26,068 nucleotides of DNA. Source: a virus. A program made the translations under genes and the position numbers. The number at the start of each line of letters is the position of its first letter. Within the stretch, counting starts at the first letter, position 1. The stretch covers positions 1 to 26,068 of the IMG/VR virus record IMGVR_UViG_3300009034_000190; one strand, 5' to 3'. Below the pieces are notes generated by a model. The model was not told the origin of the DNA and searched no databases. It saw only the letters and a list, made by a program, of their open reading frames with translations. Below are positions 2,962 through 19,781 of the stretch, one piece after another.

Positions 2962-5277
2962 GTGAGGCTAGATGTAGGGCAGTTGAGTATAAACTACGAT
3001 GCGAGGAGGAAGCGGAGGAAGGGGAGAGTGCAGGAGGTACCCAAGGAGCCCGACCGCGAAGTTACTCCCCAGAGGATAGAGTATGGAAAGCACACCAGGC
3101 CTGGCGGTACTGATGAGTGGAACGACCCGGAGTTCGACTTTAAGAAGATTGCTAAGTGTTTGGCCACAGAGGGACTATTCAGGAGAGCTGTAGATAAATA
3201 CGTAGAGCTTATATGGCGCAACGGTTATGCCCTACGCGGAGATGATCCTATCGCCGTCCAGTATATAATCGAGCGGTTCAGACAGATGGCGATGGTATCA
3301 GGAACTCCTACTGAGATATTCAATCGGAGTATGTCCCAACAGGTCGTTACGTATAATAACTGCTTCATCGAGAAGGTTAGGAGCGTGGAGGCGTCGGGCG
3401 GTCGAGTAAGGAAGACATTTACCGGGAAGGAACTCAAGCCAGTTGCCGCCTACTTTGTAGTGGATGCAACGTCGATGCGCATATCGAAGAATGAGCATGG
3501 GAAGATTAAGCACTATACGCAGAATATTAGGAAGGAAGGGGTAAAGAATCCTAAATGGACTCCCGTTAACATGATCCATATGGTTAAAGACAGGGAAGCT
3601 GGGCTAACGTTCGGCACTCCTATGGTAGCGCCAGTTATCGATGATATTCAGGCACTACGTAGGATGGAAGAGAATATAGAGATGTTAGTATTCAATCATT
3701 CCATCCCTCTCTATCAATATAAGGTCGGTAGTGACGAGCATAAGCCTAAGAAGACGGCACTATTAACTGCGAGGAGTACTGTAAGGGAGATGCCCAGCGA
3801 AGCCATGCTAATTACCCCATACGACCACGAGATAATTGCAATCGGTGCAGAAGGGCGCGCCCTTCGGTGTGAGGGATACCTGGAATACTATAAGAACAGG
3901 ATCTTCGCAGGTCTCGGTGTCTCCGAAGTGGCTATGGGATACTCCGGGAGTGCTAGCAGGAGCGCGGCGGATACTATAGAGAAGGGTATGTACAATACTA
4001 CCAGGGAGTTCCAGAATATCATAAAGATATATATGGAAACTGAGGTAATATCAGAACTCCTCCAGGAAGGCAACTTCGATCCATATGAGAGTAAGGTTGA
4101 ATGGTTCTTCCCTGAGATCGATATTGGCGATAAGGTCCAGTATGAGAACCATATAATTAACCTGTATGCAGGTAATCTCCTAACGGAGTCTGAGGGGAGA
4201 AGTGAGATAGGCAGGGAGCCTATATCAGATGAGGAGAGGGCAGAGCTTCACTTCAATATTATAGAGCTTCCTAGAGCTATCGTCGGCGCTGTAGATGAAC
4301 CCATGCTAGCAACATTCGGACCCAACGCTCTGAGGAAGATGATGTCCAAGTCTTTGGTAGGCAGGGAACGACTCAGTAAGTCGTTAGACATGCCTAGCAA
4401 TCAATATGGCACCAAGCTAGCTCCTGGTACTACTAAGGATGAACGCAACGTTCGCCTCGAACGTGATCGAAGCGATCTCTTAGATCCTGATCATGGTAAT
4501 TCGGAGGGCGATCATACTGGCGAACTTCCTGTAGTTGACGATAGGAAGGACGGAACTGCCGATATAACCAGCAGAGCGAGGAATTTACTTACTGACCTGA
4601 ACTATCCATCATATGCCACTCTCATGTACCGTTACTACAGTATGGCGCATGCCGACGCGGTAGACCTGGTTCGTGAGAGGTATATAGATGGATACGATGA
4701 AGACGGAGTTCCAGTCATCCAGTCACTTAGCGACTTCGACCTGGGCACCCTGGATTTGATCATGGGAATAACTAAGGAGCAAATGCTTCGTCACGCTGGA
4801 CCATTTATAACATACGCATTCGCACTTGGTGTACACGATGTATCAGTGCAGGCTGGGGTTCCCGACATTACAAATAACTTTGGACATCAGATAGATTATC
4901 TGAGAACTAAGAATGACGAGTGGCTGAATAATATGATTAATGCCGTCAAGAGTTCCTCCGTAGAAATAATGAGCAGTACGATTCACAAGAGCGATGCGAT
5001 ATCAAATGTAGCCACCGTATTCGATACTAATTTATTCAGGGTTAAGCTTGGTACGAGGAATGAACTTCAGCGCGCCTATAATATAGGGGTATACACGGGG
5101 GGACTGGCGCTGGGGTATTCCACATTCCAGGTTGATAACGTAGAGATTGATCCAGATGGTAAGTGTAAGGAACATGCGGACAGGACGTATGATTTGGCAG
5201 CAACTAGCCTAGATAGTATACCGCCGGGCCACATGACCCATCCTATGTGTACTTGCACATTAAAGTTAAAGAGATAG
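2962..5277 (+). CDS. Portal protein fused to a MuF-type head morphogenesis domain
   Basis: This 771-aa protein begins at a GTG 7 bases after the previous stop; a run of G at 2944-2950 can serve as ribosome binding site. Residues about 30-460 look like a portal protein, the dodecameric ring at the capsid vertex through which DNA is pumped. The region contains an E/R/K-rich stem-like segment around 260-350 and the typical position after the terminase. A polar, probably flexible linker of about 80 residues follows (roughly 460-540, with GTTKDERN and DPDHGNSEGDHTG). The C-terminal 220 residues end in a MuF signature: C735, H738, then IPPGH with H757, then PMCTC with C763 and C765, matching the conserved Cys/His pattern of SPP1 gp7/Mu F-like proteins. 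In many phages the two are separate genes, so this is a fusion. The portal call rests on position and general character more than on a single motif; the MuF end is clear. Confidence 0.82.
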   Translation: MRLDVGQLSINYDARRKRRKGRVQEVPKEPDREVTPQRIEYGKHTRPGGTDEWNDPEFDFKKIAKCLATEGLFRRAVDKYVELIWRNGYALRGDDPIAVQYIIERFRQMAMVSGTPTEIFNRSMSQQVVTYNNCFIEKVRSVEASGGRVRKTFTGKELKPVAAYFVVDATSMRISKNEHGKIKHYTQNIRKEGVKNPKWTPVNMIHMVKDREAGLTFGTPMVAPVIDDIQALRRMEENIEMLVFNHSIPLYQYKVGSDEHKPKKTALLTARSTVREMPSEAMLITPYDHEIIAIGAEGRALRCEGYLEYYKNRIFAGLGVSEVAMGYSGSASRSAADTIEKGMYNTTREFQNIIKIYMETEVISELLQEGNFDPYESKVEWFFPEIDIGDKVQYENHIINLYAGNLLTESEGRSEIGREPISDEERAELHFNIIELPRAIVGAVDEPMLATFGPNALRKMMSKSLVGRERLSKSLDMPSNQYGTKLAPGTTKDERNVRLERDRSDLLDPDHGNSEGDHTGELPVVDDRKDGTADITSRARNLLTDLNYPSYATLMYRYYSMAHADAVDLVRERYIDGYDEDGVPVIQSLSDFDLGTLDLIMGITKEQMLRHAGPFITYAFALGVHDVSVQAGVPDITNNFGHQIDYLRTKNDEWLNNMINAVKSSSVEIMSSTIHKSDAISNVATVFDTNLFRVKLGTRNELQRAYNIGVYTGGLALGYSTFQVDNVEIDPDGKCKEHADRTYDLAATSLDSIPPGHMTHPMCTCTLKLKR

Positions 5278-5643: not shown

Positions 5644-6163
5644 CGCTCGAGTTAAGAGGGTTGTATTTCACGTTAGCCACACCATAGACGTACTTGGGCG
5701 AGCTGGTTCAGATGATGTAAATGCATCCGGCGTAGCATTTGACTTGGATATGATATCGGGAAGCATCAATCCACACATCGATAAGGTAGATATTCGTAAT
5801 GTGGCGGTCACGAGTCCCGTAGAGAACACGTACAGGGTTAACTTCTTCCACCAGGCCACTCGTGGAGGGGTTTCAGGTTACGACTCCACGTATCTTGGTG
5901 GATTTGATATTCCATGTGTGTCAGGTGTTCCTGAGAACCAAGGTACGGGGATATACTACGGCAATGCTCACAATCAGGTATATGGACAGGGAGTTACCTG
6001 TTACATACCATATTTCGAGGACGATGTTAACATCCATAGGGCAGACCGCCCTACGTCTGGACACATGATACACGGTACTATACAGAACATCGGTTCTCAG
6101 GTAGCTGCTCCGGTCAAGGTTATGGTGCTGTATGAGGTTGCGAACGATCAGGAGAAGTGGTAG
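5636..6163 (+). CDS. Unknown 175-aa beta-rich protein
   Basis: The ATG at 5636 overlaps the end of the previous gene, with AAGGTGAT just upstream as ribosome binding site, so the two are translationally coupled. The 175-residue product is rich in Gly, Val, Thr, Asn and aromatic residues with alternating patterns typical of beta sandwich proteins, and has no hydrophobic segment or Cys cluster. I do not recognise the family. The setting between portal and protease suggests a minor head protein, decoration protein or head fibre, by inference only. Confidence 0.7.
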   Translation: MSDARVKRVVFHVSHTIDVLGRAGSDDVNASGVAFDLDMISGSINPHIDKVDIRNVAVTSPVENTYRVNFFHQATRGGVSGYDSTYLGGFDIPCVSGVPENQGTGIYYGNAHNQVYGQGVTCYIPYFEDDVNIHRADRPTSGHMIHGTIQNIGSQVAAPVKVMVLYEVANDQEKW

Positions 6164-6176
6164 TGGGGGTGGTAAT

Positions 6177-8018
6177 ATGGGTGTCAAGAGGTCTGTGCTA
6201 GTTACCGATGTATTCAATGGGACAATTGTTAAGGCTGTAGATGAGGACAAGGCGCGTGAGTTTATCCTGAAGGATGATAAGGGAAGTTCACTAGCATCGG
6301 GTAGGAATCTAATGGTAAAGTTTGGCGGCTCCCACTGGGGGTACGTTAACGGTAACGGGTTCTTCTACGACCCGGAAACAGTGGACAATACTATACCTAC
6401 ATGGACACTCCCATTCCAGAAGCCGGTGCTGCCATACCATCCGAATGCTAATGAGAACGACGTACCGGTATTAGGTAGGATAAAGGCTACTGACTATATA
6501 CTAGGCGCGGCAAGGGCATTCGTGGAGGACGAGAGGATTCCCGAGAATAAACCACACGGGCATCTCGAGTTCCTCACACGTATTAGTGATCCGGATGCTA
6601 TCCCACAGGTGATAGATGGAAGGCTTGATACCGTGTCTATATCCGCCCTTGCGACCAACGTTGCATGCAGCATATGCGGGGATCCTCCATCTATAGTGAA
6701 GGACTCTACGTGCCAGCATACTAGATTCAGGAGATACAATAAGGACGGGGAGAAGGATACTGATGGGAATCTCTGCTTCTATAAGGCGGGGCCGCTATGT
6801 GGGCGGCACCTCGCATTCGTACTCAGCCCCTCGGATAAGTATGCGGGGGTCAAGGGGTATGAGTGGGGCGTAGCCGATGCACAGAAGATTCTAATGGAGC
6901 TATTCGTAATATCTGATGAGGATCAACTGCTACTCAGCTTATGTGATGATAGTTCCGTTAATATGTTCGATAGATTACAGGAAGGAGACGTTAGGGCCGC
7001 AATATTTGATATGCTGCGGATAGGTAGTGAAGACACTGACCAGCAGGACGCTATTGCTGGGGAGCACGTTGAGAATACAGGAGAGGAGGGTGGAATATTG
7101 AATAAACTAGACGTATGGGATTTACTTACCATGACTGAGGAAGAGATAGATACGAAACTCAAGGAGGAGCCAGATATCCTTACTGAGGATGCTAAGCTCA
7201 CCTATAAGCAGAGGAAGGCTCTTCCGGATAGCGCATTCTGCGGACCCGGTAGGAGTTTCCCGGCACACGACGCTGCACACGTCAGGAATGGCCTTGCCAG
7301 GTTGAATCAGGCTAAGGGTAAGCCTAAGGCAAAGATATTAAGTTGCTTGAAGAGTAGGGCGAAGAAATATGGAATTAAAGTCACCACTAAGGTGAAGAAC
7401 GAAGCCAACGGTGACACTACAATCGAAGAGATCGGTGTAGTCGATGTGATCCTGGCCGACGCTACCATAGAGGACATACTAGGCCTTGATATCGTTGAGG
7501 CGTATCTGAGCAAGGAGTATGTGAGGAAGGACGCTGATGGTAGTGCAGGGACTGAAGACACCCCAACTGCTGATGGCACACCTACAGGTGATAGTGGGAA
7601 GACGGATGCCCCTCCGGTAGATATGGAGAGGCTGCAGGCAATAATCAGCGACAAGGATAATGAGATTAAGGCGCTCAATGCTGATAGGGCCCACATGTAT
7701 GGGAAGTTGAAGGGTCTCATTGTAGATCAGATTGTGGGACTCCATCTTACACTTCGGAAGGTAGATTCTGAGGGTGTAGAGGCTCTGAGAGGAACACTTA
7801 TGGAGCGTAATGAACAGTCACTCACGGATACACTGACAGATCTCACGGCGGAGGCTTCGAGCGGCAAGCCACTAGTTCCACAGGGGAAAGTGGAGTCCGC
7901 TCAAGTATCAGATGGCCGGGATCCTGATAATGTAGAGGATGGCTCCTCGGGAGGATATGAGCCATCAGGGAGTGAGGCAAGACTGAACAGTACAATATAT
8001 AAAGGTGTACGAAGATAA
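6177..8018 (+). CDS. Putative prohead protease fused to scaffolding region
   Basis: The start ATG at 6177 is preceded by GGGGGTGG at 6165-6172; an earlier in-frame ATG at 6132 lies inside the previous gene without such a site. The protein is 613 aa. The N-terminal part resembles phage capsid maturation proteases: His88 in VLPYHPNAN followed by VLGRI, then Ser154/Ser156 in LDTVSISAL, which could be catalytic His and Ser. Inserted after the serine strand is a possible zinc site (C164, C167, C179, H181). Around residues 355-400 is a compact motif, FPAHDAAHVRNGLARLNQ then CLKSRAKKYGI, that I associate with small domains found in phage head proteins. Residues about 475-560 are Asp/Lys-rich helices with heptads, as expected of a scaffold. 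The gene precedes the capsid genes, where protease and scaffold belong. Protease function is inferred from motifs; the catalytic assignments are tentative. Confidence 0.68.
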   Translation: MGVKRSVLVTDVFNGTIVKAVDEDKAREFILKDDKGSSLASGRNLMVKFGGSHWGYVNGNGFFYDPETVDNTIPTWTLPFQKPVLPYHPNANENDVPVLGRIKATDYILGAARAFVEDERIPENKPHGHLEFLTRISDPDAIPQVIDGRLDTVSISALATNVACSICGDPPSIVKDSTCQHTRFRRYNKDGEKDTDGNLCFYKAGPLCGRHLAFVLSPSDKYAGVKGYEWGVADAQKILMELFVISDEDQLLLSLCDDSSVNMFDRLQEGDVRAAIFDMLRIGSEDTDQQDAIAGEHVENTGEEGGILNKLDVWDLLTMTEEEIDTKLKEEPDILTEDAKLTYKQRKALPDSAFCGPGRSFPAHDAAHVRNGLARLNQAKGKPKAKILSCLKSRAKKYGIKVTTKVKNEANGDTTIEEIGVVDVILADATIEDILGLDIVEAYLSKEYVRKDADGSAGTEDTPTADGTPTGDSGKTDAPPVDMERLQAIISDKDNEIKALNADRAHMYGKLKGLIVDQIVGLHLTLRKVDSEGVEALRGTLMERNEQSLTDTLTDLTAEASSGKPLVPQGKVESAQVSDGRDPDNVEDGSSGGYEPSGSEARLNSTIYKGVRR

Positions 8019-9205: not shown

Positions 9206-9230
9206 GTAATGGAAGGAGGTAAGATAGATT

Positions 9231-9405
9231 ATGAAGATAAGGCGGAAGGACAAAGAGACTGATGAAGATCTCTTGAAGCTTTACTCCAACGTCTACTCCG
9301 CATTCACAAACAACGGATACGTTGCGGATGCGGATAGCATTACCGGATTCAGTGAGGATCAGGTACAACTAAGGGATCTCCTAACGCAGACGGATCTTAC
9401 GAGGT
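9231..9405 (+). CDS. Major capsid protein, exon 1
   Basis: The ATG at 9231 follows a near-consensus ribosome binding site (AAGGAGGT at 9213-9220). Unspliced, the frame stops at TAG 9411-9413 after 60 residues. The exon is proposed to end at T9405, because GAGGT (9401-9405) pairs with the guide GCTTC (9415-9419) to form P1 with the obligatory U-G pair at the splice point. Exon 1 supplies 58 codons plus one base; joined to exon 2 at 10387 the frame continues as LTQTDLTRF then IPTTVQTVVREAL, giving a 449-aa protein. This N-terminal piece is charged and helical, as expected for the N-arm of an HK97-fold capsid protein. Confidence 0.82.
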
Positions 9406-10386
9406 TCGCATAGAGCTTCCTACTACAGTAATGTAGTAGTTCAACTTCACTATATGCTGGAAAGCCCTAACAGGTAGTGCTGAAGGCAATCAGCAGGTAA
9501 CTTAAGATAGCAAGTAAGAGGCACCCGATATGATGCAGAGAAAGACACTAGAGAAGGAATATTACAGGAATAAGTTGACGCAGGAAGAGATAGCTGAGAA
9601 GTACGGCATATCTCGTCAAACTGTAATAGTTTACCTCAGGCAATATGGGTTAAGTCCTCTGAAACCCTATGAGAGAAACGAAGCGCAAGAACTAACGGCG
9701 AAGCAGGAAGAATTTCTGATTGGTACTATGCTTGGAGATGGGTGTCTACAGATAGCTAAGAATGGCACCAATTCGTGGTTGACTATCAAGCACAGCTATA
9801 AGCAGATGCCTTATGTAGAATGGAAGTATGAGATAATGGAATCGTTTGCTGGATGTAGTATTAAGTCCTCAGAGGAATATGCACACGGTAAGTTGTATAG
9901 GAAGGCTTACTTCAGAACCATATGCCATCCAGTATTCACGGATCTACAGAGGATGTTCTATGATAAGGGTGTTAAAGTAGTTACCAATGAGATAGCTTCC
10001 ATGCTAACTCCGTTCTCAATGGCTGTGTGGTTCATGGATGATGGAACTCGAAGTAGGAATCATCTGGAATTTGCTACCCATTCATATACCACCCCTGAAC
10101 TAGAGAGACTGCAGAAGGTGTTCAGAGATAGGTTCAATATACACACCTCTCTGTGGTTTGCTGGTTACAGGAAAGGTAGTAACCAGAAGATGTATAAGAT
10201 TGGGATACTGAAGAAGAGTGTAGACCAGCTTATATCTATGATGTCTTCCTATATAATTCCATCCATGATGTATAAGATTGCGCCGTTACTCTCAGGAACC
10301 CCAGAGACTACACGTGAAGCCCCGCAAACTGCGGGTGAAGATATAGTCCAAGCCCTATAAGTACCGCGAAAGCGGGGGTATAACTG
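9406..10386 (+). ncRNA. Group I self-splicing intron in the major capsid gene
   Basis: About 981 bases interrupt the capsid frame. Visible elements in order: P1 (9401-9405 with 9415-9419); P2 hairpin CTACTACA/TGTAGTAG with GTAA tetraloop (9420-9439); P3 CTTCAC (9445-9450) with GTGAAG (10314-10319); P4 TGCTG (9455-9459) with CAGCA (9491-9495); P5 GCC (9464-9466) with GGC (9485-9487); P7 GACTA (10306-10310) with TAGTC (10344-10348); P8 CCCGC (10321-10325) with GCGGG (10331-10335); and P9 CCGC-GAAA-GCGG (10364-10375). The intron ends in G10386. The endonuclease gene starts in the P6 loop and its 3' end overlaps P7, P3, P8 and P7'. The splice restores the reading frame exactly. Subgroup was not assigned. 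Confidence 0.87.
9530..10360 (+). CDS. LAGLIDADG homing endonuclease with N-terminal helix-turn-helix (intron-encoded)
   Basis: The 276-aa protein carries two LAGLIDADG motifs, FLIGTMLGDG (62-71) and SMAVWFMDDG (163-172), so it should act as a monomer with two catalytic acids (D70, D171). Residues about 15-40 (LTQEEIAEKYGISRQTVIVY) form a helix-turn-helix like those of sigma or resolvase families, likely an extra DNA-binding module. Such enzymes cut intronless alleles so that repair copies the intron. The start is ATG 9530 (or 9533) after AAGAGG at 9514-9519. The last 18 or so codons double as intron core (P7, P3, P8, P7'), which explains the odd C-terminus (ETTREAPQTAGEDIVQAL) and suggests the frame was extended into the ribozyme. 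A maturase role is possible. Confidence 0.88.
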   Translation: MMQRKTLEKEYYRNKLTQEEIAEKYGISRQTVIVYLRQYGLSPLKPYERNEAQELTAKQEEFLIGTMLGDGCLQIAKNGTNSWLTIKHSYKQMPYVEWKYEIMESFAGCSIKSSEEYAHGKLYRKAYFRTICHPVFTDLQRMFYDKGVKVVTNEIASMLTPFSMAVWFMDDGTRSRNHLEFATHSYTTPELERLQKVFRDRFNIHTSLWFAGYRKGSNQKMYKIGILKKSVDQLISMMSSYIIPSMMYKIAPLLSGTPETTREAPQTAGEDIVQAL

Positions 10387-11561
10387 TCATCCCGACCACT
10401 GTTCAGACAGTCGTCAGGGAAGCACTTGAGCCTAATCTACTGATTATCCCGAATTGTTTCCAGACAATCAATAGTGCTCAGGGTAGAATCGTGCAGATCG
10501 GTGCCATAGGCGCTATGTACGCTGCTATGATCCCTGAGGGTGGCGAATATCCAACTCAGGATCTCGACGTAGACGGGGGTGACATCGTTGCGGTCTCCAT
10601 TGCCAAGCACGGTTTGCAGATCCGCGTTACCGATGAAACCATTGATGAGAATCAATGGGACGTATTCGGGATGTGGCTCCGTGCAGCAGGGCGCGCATTG
10701 GCCCGGCATAAGGAGAAACAAGGAGCACTCCTACTGAATGACTTCGGTGGGGTGGTATTTGATAACAATGCCCCTACTACGGTTGATGATCCGACTCAAT
10801 TCGGTACGACTACTGGTAGAGATATCACAGGTGCATTCAATGGTAGTATGACATTGAATGACATCTTCGATCTCTACGCATGGCTCGCCATGCGAGGGTT
10901 CATACCTGATACACTACTTATGCACCCACTAGCGTGGCAGACATTCGCTATCGACCCGGAAATTCGGGAGATAGTACTTCGAGGCGCCGTCCTGGCTACT
11001 CGGAGAATGCCTGACGGTACCTATTCACCTGGATGGGGTACCAGTCATGAGGGGCGAGGCTTGAGAACCACTGCTACCGGTACGGGCTCCGATACTGGAT
11101 ACGGCACTGGGCCTGATACTGTACTAGGTAAGATAGGCGCCAATCCTTGGGTGTCAACACTGAATCCACTGGCGGCCACATTCAATATTGCCCCACAGTA
11201 TCTTCCCTCACCGTTGAGGGTGCTAGTAACACCATTCGTCGCATTCAACAATACTGGAGGCACAATCTCTACCGGTTCACCGGCAGTGAGCAGGACGTAC
11301 CCCACGACCACAATTACAATGCTTGACAGTAGTAACTGTGGTATTCTGGTACAGAGGTCTCCTGTAGCTACGGAGGAGTATGATGATCCCGCCCGTGACA
11401 TTAGGGCAATGAAGATAATGGAGAAGTACGGCCTTCAATTATTGGAGCAGGGTAAGGCCGTCGCTTCAGCAAGGAACGTTGTCATTACGAGGAACTACGT
11501 ATTCGATAATTCGAATGTAGTCACTCTCCAGCCACACGATAAGAGCACTGCTCTAGTCTAG
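10387..11561 (+). CDS. Major capsid protein, exon 2
   Basis: The coding frame is open upstream of the first ATG (10491) to the predicted 3' splice site; the first two bases complete the Phe codon begun in exon 1. This exon encodes about 390 of the 449 residues. The sequence has the character of an HK97-fold major capsid protein: a VREALEPNLLIIPN segment, a GAMYAAMIPEGGEYP loop, the long helix DVFGMWLRAAGRALARHKEKQGA, and LYAWLAMRGFIPDTLLMHPLAWQTFA. It follows the protease/scaffold gene as expected. An ATG-only annotation starting at 10491 would lose about 35 conserved residues plus exon 1. Confidence in capsid identity comes from order, size and general pattern. Confidence 0.83.
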
Positions 11562-18257: not shown

Positions 18258-18811
18258 ATGCCAACCACATTGGAGACGATTACTCAGACGTATACATCGT
18301 TCTCAGGTGCAGATATCAAGTGTGTTGTTGGTAGGGTGATGATTATGGAGCTGCAGGGGTTGTTGGTAGGGTGATGATTATGGAGCTGCAGGGTATATCC
18401 TACAGCGTGACCAGGGAGAAGGCTCCGATCTACACAATGGGAAGCCCAGATCCAAGGTCATTCAGCAGAGGTAAGCGCGGGATCGCCGGCAGCATGATAT
18501 TCACCATATTCGACAGAGACCCGCTGTCCGCACTGGCAGATGACGTAAGGAAGGTATACTATTACTATGCCAAGGAGGATGAACTCCGTGAGCCTTCACA
18601 CTATGGGCGGGAGGTTAACCAACAGCTAGTAGATAGGAATGGTATGCCGCTTGATATAGAGAGGCGGCCGCCCATCTATGACGATCAGATACTCCCTTTC
18701 GATATCACAATCAATGCCCAGAATGAATATGGGCAGATGGCAGTTAAGAGGATATATGGAGTAGAGATCCTAAATAGTGGCGAGGGTATGTCTATTGATG
18801 ATATTGTCAAT
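18258..18811 (+). CDS. Tail-tube-like protein 1, exon 1 (frame broken by a 35-bp duplication)
   Basis: ATG 18258 follows GGGAGGGGA (18241-18249). The frame reads through FSGADIKCVVGRVMIMELQG and then stops at TGA 18372-18374 because of the tandem 35-bp duplication at 18324-18393. Dropping one copy joins it to ELQGISYSVTREKAPIYTMG and the rest, matching the paralogue downstream. The exon ends at T18811: GTCAAT (18806-18811) pairs with guide GTTGAC (18826-18831). Joined to exon 2 at 19782 the protein would be 214 aa. The family is recognised by FSGADI, SYSV-REKAP, FSRGKRGIAGSMIF, PFDITI and SIDDI motifs, fitting a tube protein after the sheath. As read, GTG 18371, ATG 18374 (overlapping the stop as TGATG) or ATG 18380 could restart translation of the longer part. 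Confidence 0.75.
18324..18393 (+). repeat. Exact 35-bp tandem direct repeat (two copies)
   Basis: Copy 1 is 18324-18358 and copy 2 is 18359-18393, identical at all 35 positions and adjacent. The flanking bases do not match (18323 versus 18358; 18359 versus 18394). Because 35 is 3n+2, it shifts the reading frame of the tube-like gene from frame of 18258 to that of 18371. Confidence 0.95.
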
Positions 18812-19781
18812 GAATCACATCAATCGTTGACGTTAAATCCTACTATATGCGGGAAAGCCCTAACGGGTAGTGCCGAGGGTAATCCGCAGGGAAGAGCATA
18901 CCAGGATAACTGGTGGTAACACTCCCCTCAGAGACTATACGTAGGAGGTTACATTGCCTAAGATTACAACAATGAATGAAGAATACTTCCAACACTGGTC
19001 ACCCGATATGGCGTACGTACTCGGGTTCATAGTTGCTGATGGCTGTATAGTATGTCATGACGGCGCCTATCAGCTCATCGTATCCTGCGTGGATCGCGAC
19101 CTAGTAGAATTCATCAGGGATGAGCTTGAATACACACCAACGGTTAAGAAATGTAAGGATGGGTGCTATAGGCTGAGCGTATGTCGCAAGCGGGTCGTAA
19201 TGGACTTGATGGCGCACGGTATACTACCGAGGAAGTCGTGGTCGCCGCTGGTGCCTGATGTTCCTACAGAATATCATGAACCCTTCATACATGGGCTATT
19301 CGATGGAGATGGTTCCGTGTGGACTGATTGGCGGAAGGGTAGAGGTAAGAAGTCGCGCCAATATAGAGTGACTAGTAGTATAACTTCCTATAGCAAGGAA
19401 TTCCTCCAGGGTATCGGGGGTATTATTAAGAGGCTTAATGGAAGTATACCTAAGATATATGGTGGATATGGCGATACACACACGTATCATATAGTATATT
19501 CTAACAAGGAATCTATCGCGCTATACCATACACTATATGATAATCCATTACATAAGTTCTATCTTGGTAGGAAGAAGGAAGTATTCGAAGATTGGCTACT
19601 AACGTGGAAGCATGACTTGGAGTGGGGGCTACGGAAGTGTAGGATATGTGCCACCAAGTTCGTCGCACTTCACGATAAGAGTACCAAGTGCTTATCATGT
19701 TCTAAGCGAACGTCTCGTTCATGTAGGGCAGTAACTAAGAGATAGTCCGATCTCATATGAGAGTATGAGCTAACATAAATG
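18812..19781 (+). ncRNA. Group I self-splicing intron in the tail-tube-like gene
   Basis: About 970 bases. P1 is GTCAAT/GTTGAC (18806-18811 with 18826-18831) ending in a U-G pair; P3 TCCTAC (18838-18843) with GTAGGA (18941-18946); P4 TGCGG (18848-18852) with CCGCA (18884-18888); P5 GCCC (18857-18860) with GGGT (18877-18880); P6a ACCAG/CTGGT around 18900-18915; P7 GACTA (18933-18937) with TAGTC (19743-19747); P8 GTTAC (18948-18952) with GTAAC (19731-19735); P9 CTCATA/TATGAG (about 19752-19769). It ends in G19781. The core shares GGAAAGCCCTAAC and the 36-base P4 spacing with the capsid intron. Splicing gives SIDDIVN-ERQATFVAR, aligning without gaps to SIDDIMVEKTCSFVAR of the paralogue. Confidence 0.88.
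18954..19745 (+). CDS. LAGLIDADG homing endonuclease with C-terminal zinc-binding motif (intron-encoded)
   Basis: 263 aa from TTG 18954, which has AGGAGG at 18943-18948 as binding site; this site overlaps the 3' strand of P3 and the start of P8, so intron folding and translation should compete. Two LAGLIDADG motifs are visible: YVLGFIVADG (21-30) and FIHGLFDGDG (111-120), the latter with D118, so a monomeric enzyme is expected. The C-terminal end has C229-x2-C232 and C246-x2-C249, a likely zinc ribbon. The stop TAG (19743-19745) is part of P7'. The gene fills the P8 loop. It is not closely similar to the capsid-intron enzyme: no shared HTH, and different motifs. Confidence 0.88.
   Translation: MPKITTMNEEYFQHWSPDMAYVLGFIVADGCIVCHDGAYQLIVSCVDRDLVEFIRDELEYTPTVKKCKDGCYRLSVCRKRVVMDLMAHGILPRKSWSPLVPDVPTEYHEPFIHGLFDGDGSVWTDWRKGRGKKSRQYRVTSSITSYSKEFLQGIGGIIKRLNGSIPKIYGGYGDTHTYHIVYSNKESIALYHTLYDNPLHKFYLGRKKEVFEDWLLTWKHDLEWGLRKCRICATKFVALHDKSTKCLSCSKRTSRSCRAVTKR

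Follow-up and report, generated by a model that had tools for sequence, protein, structure and literature searches.

The window, which is the whole stretch of DNA analysed here, is an IMG/VR virus record of 26,069 bases in which neighbouring genes match the portal, head maturation protease and major head protein families in family searches. The gene considered here lies in two parts (Table 1). Taken by itself, exon 2 has matches to Phage_capsid_4 (9.1e-14) and to two phrogs of major head proteins, and by sequence family match the interrupted gene is that of a phage major capsid protein. The ATG of exon 1 at 9231 is preceded by a Shine-Dalgarno-like sequence, AGGAGG, at 9214-9219. When positions 9406-10386 are excised in silico the two exons are joined in frame within the codon for F59, at a predicted ligated junction of ...ACGAGGU-UCAUCCCG, to give a capsid protein of 449 aa which is 31.5% identical to the major head protein of Moorella phage MTATph1 in a protein search. 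The sequence-only reading had proposed a group I intron with exact splice sites at these positions, joining 58 codons and one base to 390 codons; its coordinates proved exact and its essentials correct, as did its expectation that automatic annotation would yield a truncated capsid starting at 10491 and a 60-aa ORF, which is what the ORF list contains. On comparison with related sequences it is almost certain that 9406-10386 is a mobile group I intron within the major capsid gene, the splicing of which would give the 449-aa capsid.

Table 1. Features of the interrupted capsid gene and of the predicted intron within it (positions in the window).
Feature	Position	Strand	Details
Exon 1, major capsid gene	9231..9405	+	58 codons + 1 nt; aligned to intronless relatives
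P1	9401..9419	+	exon GAGGU 9401-9405 with internal guide GCUUC 9415-9419; U9405.G9415 at splice site
Predicted group I intron, 981 nt	9406..10386	+	excision frame, relatives, covariation, U (exon) and G (intron) ends
P2 hairpin, GUAA loop	9420..9439	+	three pairs changed on both sides
P3 5' strand CUUCAC	9445..9450	+	partner GUGAAG 10314-10319; 100% paired, three pairs changed on both sides
P4 enclosing P5	9455..9495	+	P4 9455-9459/9491-9495; P5 9464-9466/9485-9487
P6a-like hairpin ACUU...AAGU	9500..9515	+	by direct reading
Intron ORF, LAGLIDADG_2 homing endonuclease, 276 aa	9530..10360	+	PF03161 2e-39; phrog_11023 3.2e-23; I-SceI 2.5e-12
P7 + P3 3' strand + P8	10306..10348	+	P7 10306-10310/10344-10348; P3' 10314-10319; P8 10321-10325/10331-10335
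P9 CCGC-GAAA-GCGG	10364..10375	+	three compensatory pairs among four introns
Exon 2, major capsid gene	10387..11561	+	2 nt + 390 codons + stop

Relatives of the capsid were collected by searching with the spliced protein and then with an alignment, which gave 43 viral contigs. The gene runs uninterrupted across the junction in 41 of these, with a TRF/IP-like sequence (for example ATRFIPAVVQTVVREALEPNL and ATRFIPKVVETVVREALEPNL), in keeping with the TRFIPTT-like reading that had been expected of intronless relatives. The remaining two contigs, IMGVR_UViG_3300028840_003855 (L006) and IMGVR_UViG_3300032053_007626 (L047), are interrupted by homologous introns (983 and 981 nt, respectively, against 981 nt in the window) that split the same capsid codon at precisely the point seen in the window, their spliced capsids being 73% and 63% identical to that of the window. 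The intron core, searched as a DNA pattern in viral contigs, matched the L006 contig alone. Among named phages a DNA search gave no match and a protein search only distant capsids, from Moorella, Bacillus and Acinetobacter phages, of which those of MTATph1 and Bacillus phage KLEB27-3 are each annotated as a single ORF. An intron had been suspected in the MTATph1 capsid, where the match starts at residue 59, and was rejected as the one annotated ORF starts 38 codons upstream. A search of bacterial and archaeal genomes with the capsid found no host or prophage.

The boundaries of the intron are marked by the last base of exon 1, U9405 (GAGGU), which forms a U.G wobble with G9415 in P1, and by the last base of the intron, G10386 (AACUG), a signature shared by the introns at this site in the window, L006 and L047. 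Each cut is followed by TC, so that a shift of the junction by 1-2 nt would leave the mRNA unchanged; only the 9405/10386 placement has both the terminal U and the terminal G. The helices that the sequence-only reading had drawn (P1, P2, P3, P4, P5, P7, P8 and P9) are all present, along with a P6a-like hairpin, P6 itself being visible by eye only, as a short helix. The elements of a group I core, with its P3-P8 and P4-P6 helices and P3/P7 pseudoknot, are represented by P3, P4, P5, P7 and P8. The stretch from P7 to P3 is only 3 nt, which argues against an IA type intron with P7.1/P7.2. P10, as read directly, looks weak in the window but reaches 7 bp in L047, where UUAUUCC of exon 2 pairs with GGAAUGG, and 5 bp in L006.

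Covariation was assessed for P1, P2, P3, P4, P5, P7, P8 and P9 in an alignment of the three introns at this site and the second capsid intron of L006. P1, P2, P3, P4, P7, P8 and P9 fit the related introns, and P3, P4, P7 and P8 covary among the four. Across these, 96.0% of cells pair, a figure that should be considered with caution as the structure was hand-drawn on the basis of the window sequence, and so favours itself on cells paired, and only four introns are compared. Pairs changed on both sides number 14 out of 41, against a mean of 5.4 in shuffled alignments and none as high in 500 shuffles, which we take as support and not as a probability given the few sequences and the manually drawn structure. 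When the 3' strands were slid by 1-3 columns, pairing fell to 32-45% with 0-1 pairs changed on both sides. P3, for example, reads CUUCAC:GUGAAG in the window, CUCCAC:GUGGAG in L006 and CUUUAC:GUAAAG in L047; P7 reads GACUA:UAGUC in the window and GGCCA:UGGUC in intron 2 of L006; P4 has two compensatory pairs relative to L047; and the third pair of P1, G.U in the window, is G-C in both L006 and L047.

The Rfam Intron_gpI model (RF00028) gave no match within 9300-10500. When the two parts of the intron were searched separately, a truncated match of 13.8 bits was obtained on the 5' part and none on the 3' part, so that the check proposed earlier, an Infernal search of 9400-10400 with this model, did not reach the gathering score. 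That score, 50, is a detection threshold and not a defining property of group I introns, and the window intron falls below it because the 831-base ORF splits the ribozyme core between P6 and P7. The homologous introns of L006 and L047 have weak matches on their 3' parts, and the same model does detect a second intron further along the window (52.9 bits). Group I introns with a core split by an ORF are thus missed by the standard ribozyme search.

The missing Rfam flag, together with automatic ORFs consisting of 10491-11561 and the 60-aa frame upstream, could be read as a broken capsid gene, into which an endonuclease gene has been inserted and from which a truncated capsid is translated from the GTG at 10491 in the absence of splicing. 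However, such a protein would lack 93 N-terminal residues, many of them conserved in relatives; exon 1 is itself conserved and has a ribosome-binding site; and three phages share the identical insertion site with ribozyme helices that show compensatory changes. We regard a broken gene as very improbable. Removal at the level of the protein or ribosome, with the insert as an intein or a bypassed segment of the kind found in T4 gene 60, has even less to commend it and is exceedingly improbable. The insert does interrupt a single codon and, like many inteins, contains a homing endonuclease gene, but an in-frame stop (TAG, 9411-9413) follows exon 1, the endonuclease starts in another frame, no intein family or domain was matched by the insert in the family search, and the insert has covarying group I helices. 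The T4 gene 60 bypass gap is about 50 nt, and the insert, at 981 nt, is far above this.

The ORF within the intron was left unnamed by the earlier reading and is identified here as a LAGLIDADG endonuclease. It aligns with I-SceI over residues 44-255, both LAGLIDADG motifs retaining their acidic residues (LGDG and MDDG). Its N-terminus is probably a helix-turn-helix, a Pfam match which is sub-threshold in the window protein and above threshold in the L047 homologue. The endonucleases of L006 and L047 are 78% and 58% identical to that of the window; four distant relatives were found by search and one more by alignment search. Between the window and L006, pS is 0.70 (near saturation) and dN 0.144, lower than the capsid dN of 0.24, which suggests that the endonuclease has long been under purifying selection. 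The last codons of the ORF overlap the ribozyme core (P7, P3' and P8), and some of the constraint at the C-terminus may be due to this overlap.

The intron RNA would fold after transcription and excise itself via two transesterifications: attack by guanosine after U9405, as presented in P1, followed by attack of the freed exon after G10386, the ligated mRNA then encoding the full capsid. The I-SceI-like endonuclease probably cuts the conserved capsid site in copies that lack the intron, repair of which would copy the intron in (homing). The boundaries, the compensatory helices, the site common to three phages, the endonuclease family and the purifying selection are established by sequence comparison, and we infer self-splicing, DNA cleavage and current mobility from what is established for group I introns and LAGLIDADG endonucleases in general. 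In a further explanation splicing is real, but homing is no longer the chief task of the endonuclease, which would instead assist splicing as a maturase or be used to attack intronless phages in the same infected cell. Some LAGLIDADG proteins are maturases, and the presence of a common site in three phages with capsids only 63-73% identical would suit such a role, as would the strong constraint (dN 0.144 with near-saturated synonymous sites). In phage PhiPA3 an intron endonuclease confers a competitive advantage (PMC11620839). However, both motifs keep their acidic residues as in active homing endonucleases, and we consider a principal role other than homing unlikely, though not far-fetched.

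The capsid gene of L006 (2052-6897) comprises six exons, 2052-2205, 3189-3382, 4342-4424, 4673-4686, 4949-4968 and 6037-6897, two of which are just 14 and 20 nt long, and is predicted to hold five group I introns, a reading drawn from one metagenome contig. All five introns have the same U and G ends with a P1 readable for each, and the spliced product of 441 aa aligns to the window capsid free of gaps at every junction. With Rfam, intron 3 scored 54.6 bits (above the gathering score), intron 4 47.0 (just below it) and intron 1 a partial match. LAGLIDADG_2 ORFs that are related to each other (49% identity) lie in introns 1 and 2, and intron 5 has a LAGLIDADG_3 ORF. A second capsid intron in L047 (4416-5235, 820 nt), with an HNH endonuclease ORF, occupies another site (HPL/AW), bringing the capsid family to a total of six insertion sites. 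It is tempting to see the capsid genes of this phage clade as long-term hosts of many ribozymes (six sites, five of them occupied in L006), with an endonuclease selected for its benefit to the phage, for example through interference with intronless co-infecting relatives, and not for selfish spread alone; this is offered as speculation, and as a rather improbable one.

Introns were also observed outside the capsid gene. The window has a second group I intron at 18812-19781 (970 nt) in a probable tail gene, with a LAGLIDADG_3 ORF at 18954-19745, the removal of which joins ...SIDDIVN to ERQATFVAR... consistent with a paralogue present in the window (SIDDIMVEKTCSFVAR). In the L006 contig a group I intron without an ORF occupies this site, and at least three introns interrupt the tail gene of that contig (about 23590-26450), two of them containing endonuclease-like ORFs; within this gene, no canonical U site could be assigned at the first junction. 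Near the start of the window tail gene, a perfect 35-bp tandem duplication (18324-18393) shifts the reading frame and may represent either a genuine mutation or an assembly error.

The intron of the window belongs to a well-known class of mobile elements, and group I introns in capsid genes have already been described. The present analysis corrects how the principal structural gene is annotated in an uncultured phage lineage. More striking than the window intron is the predicted five-intron capsid gene of L006; no phage capsid gene with as many as five group I introns was found in the largely open-access literature searched. With its 14-nt exon, this gene would be a good test of the efficiency and accuracy with which several ribozymes splice one highly expressed late mRNA.

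In crAss-like phages of the Delta and Zeta groups, group I introns also break up capsid genes, with one Zeta capsid gene in five fragments (PMC7886860); these phages were absent among the capsid relatives found here, and the L006 gene has six exons and five introns, including the two very short exons. The Bastillevirinae have up to three introns per gene, in polymerase, terminase, reductase and thymidylate synthase genes, and resemble the present case in that their essential genes hold group I introns whose loops encode endonucleases (PMC11878797). Three introns are likewise found in one gene, orf142, of phage Twort, and the endonuclease family phrog_11023 is also present in a Nitunavirus DNA polymerase intron. 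I-SceI is itself a LAGLIDADG intron endonuclease to which both motifs align, whereas the window protein adds the probable helix-turn-helix and is phage-borne. The major capsid gene of mycobacteriophage LittleE (Cluster J) also contains a likely group I intron, which has an ORF for a LAGLIDADG-type endonuclease and the splicing of which was shown by RT-PCR and N-terminal sequencing (PMC3706429). However, the ORF of LittleE is on the opposite strand, whilst that of the window intron runs in the direction of the capsid gene and extends into the ribozyme core, and the splicing of this intron is a prediction. The Cluster J phages BAKA and Optimus have an intron in a tail gene (PMC3706429), and the window combines capsid and tail introns.
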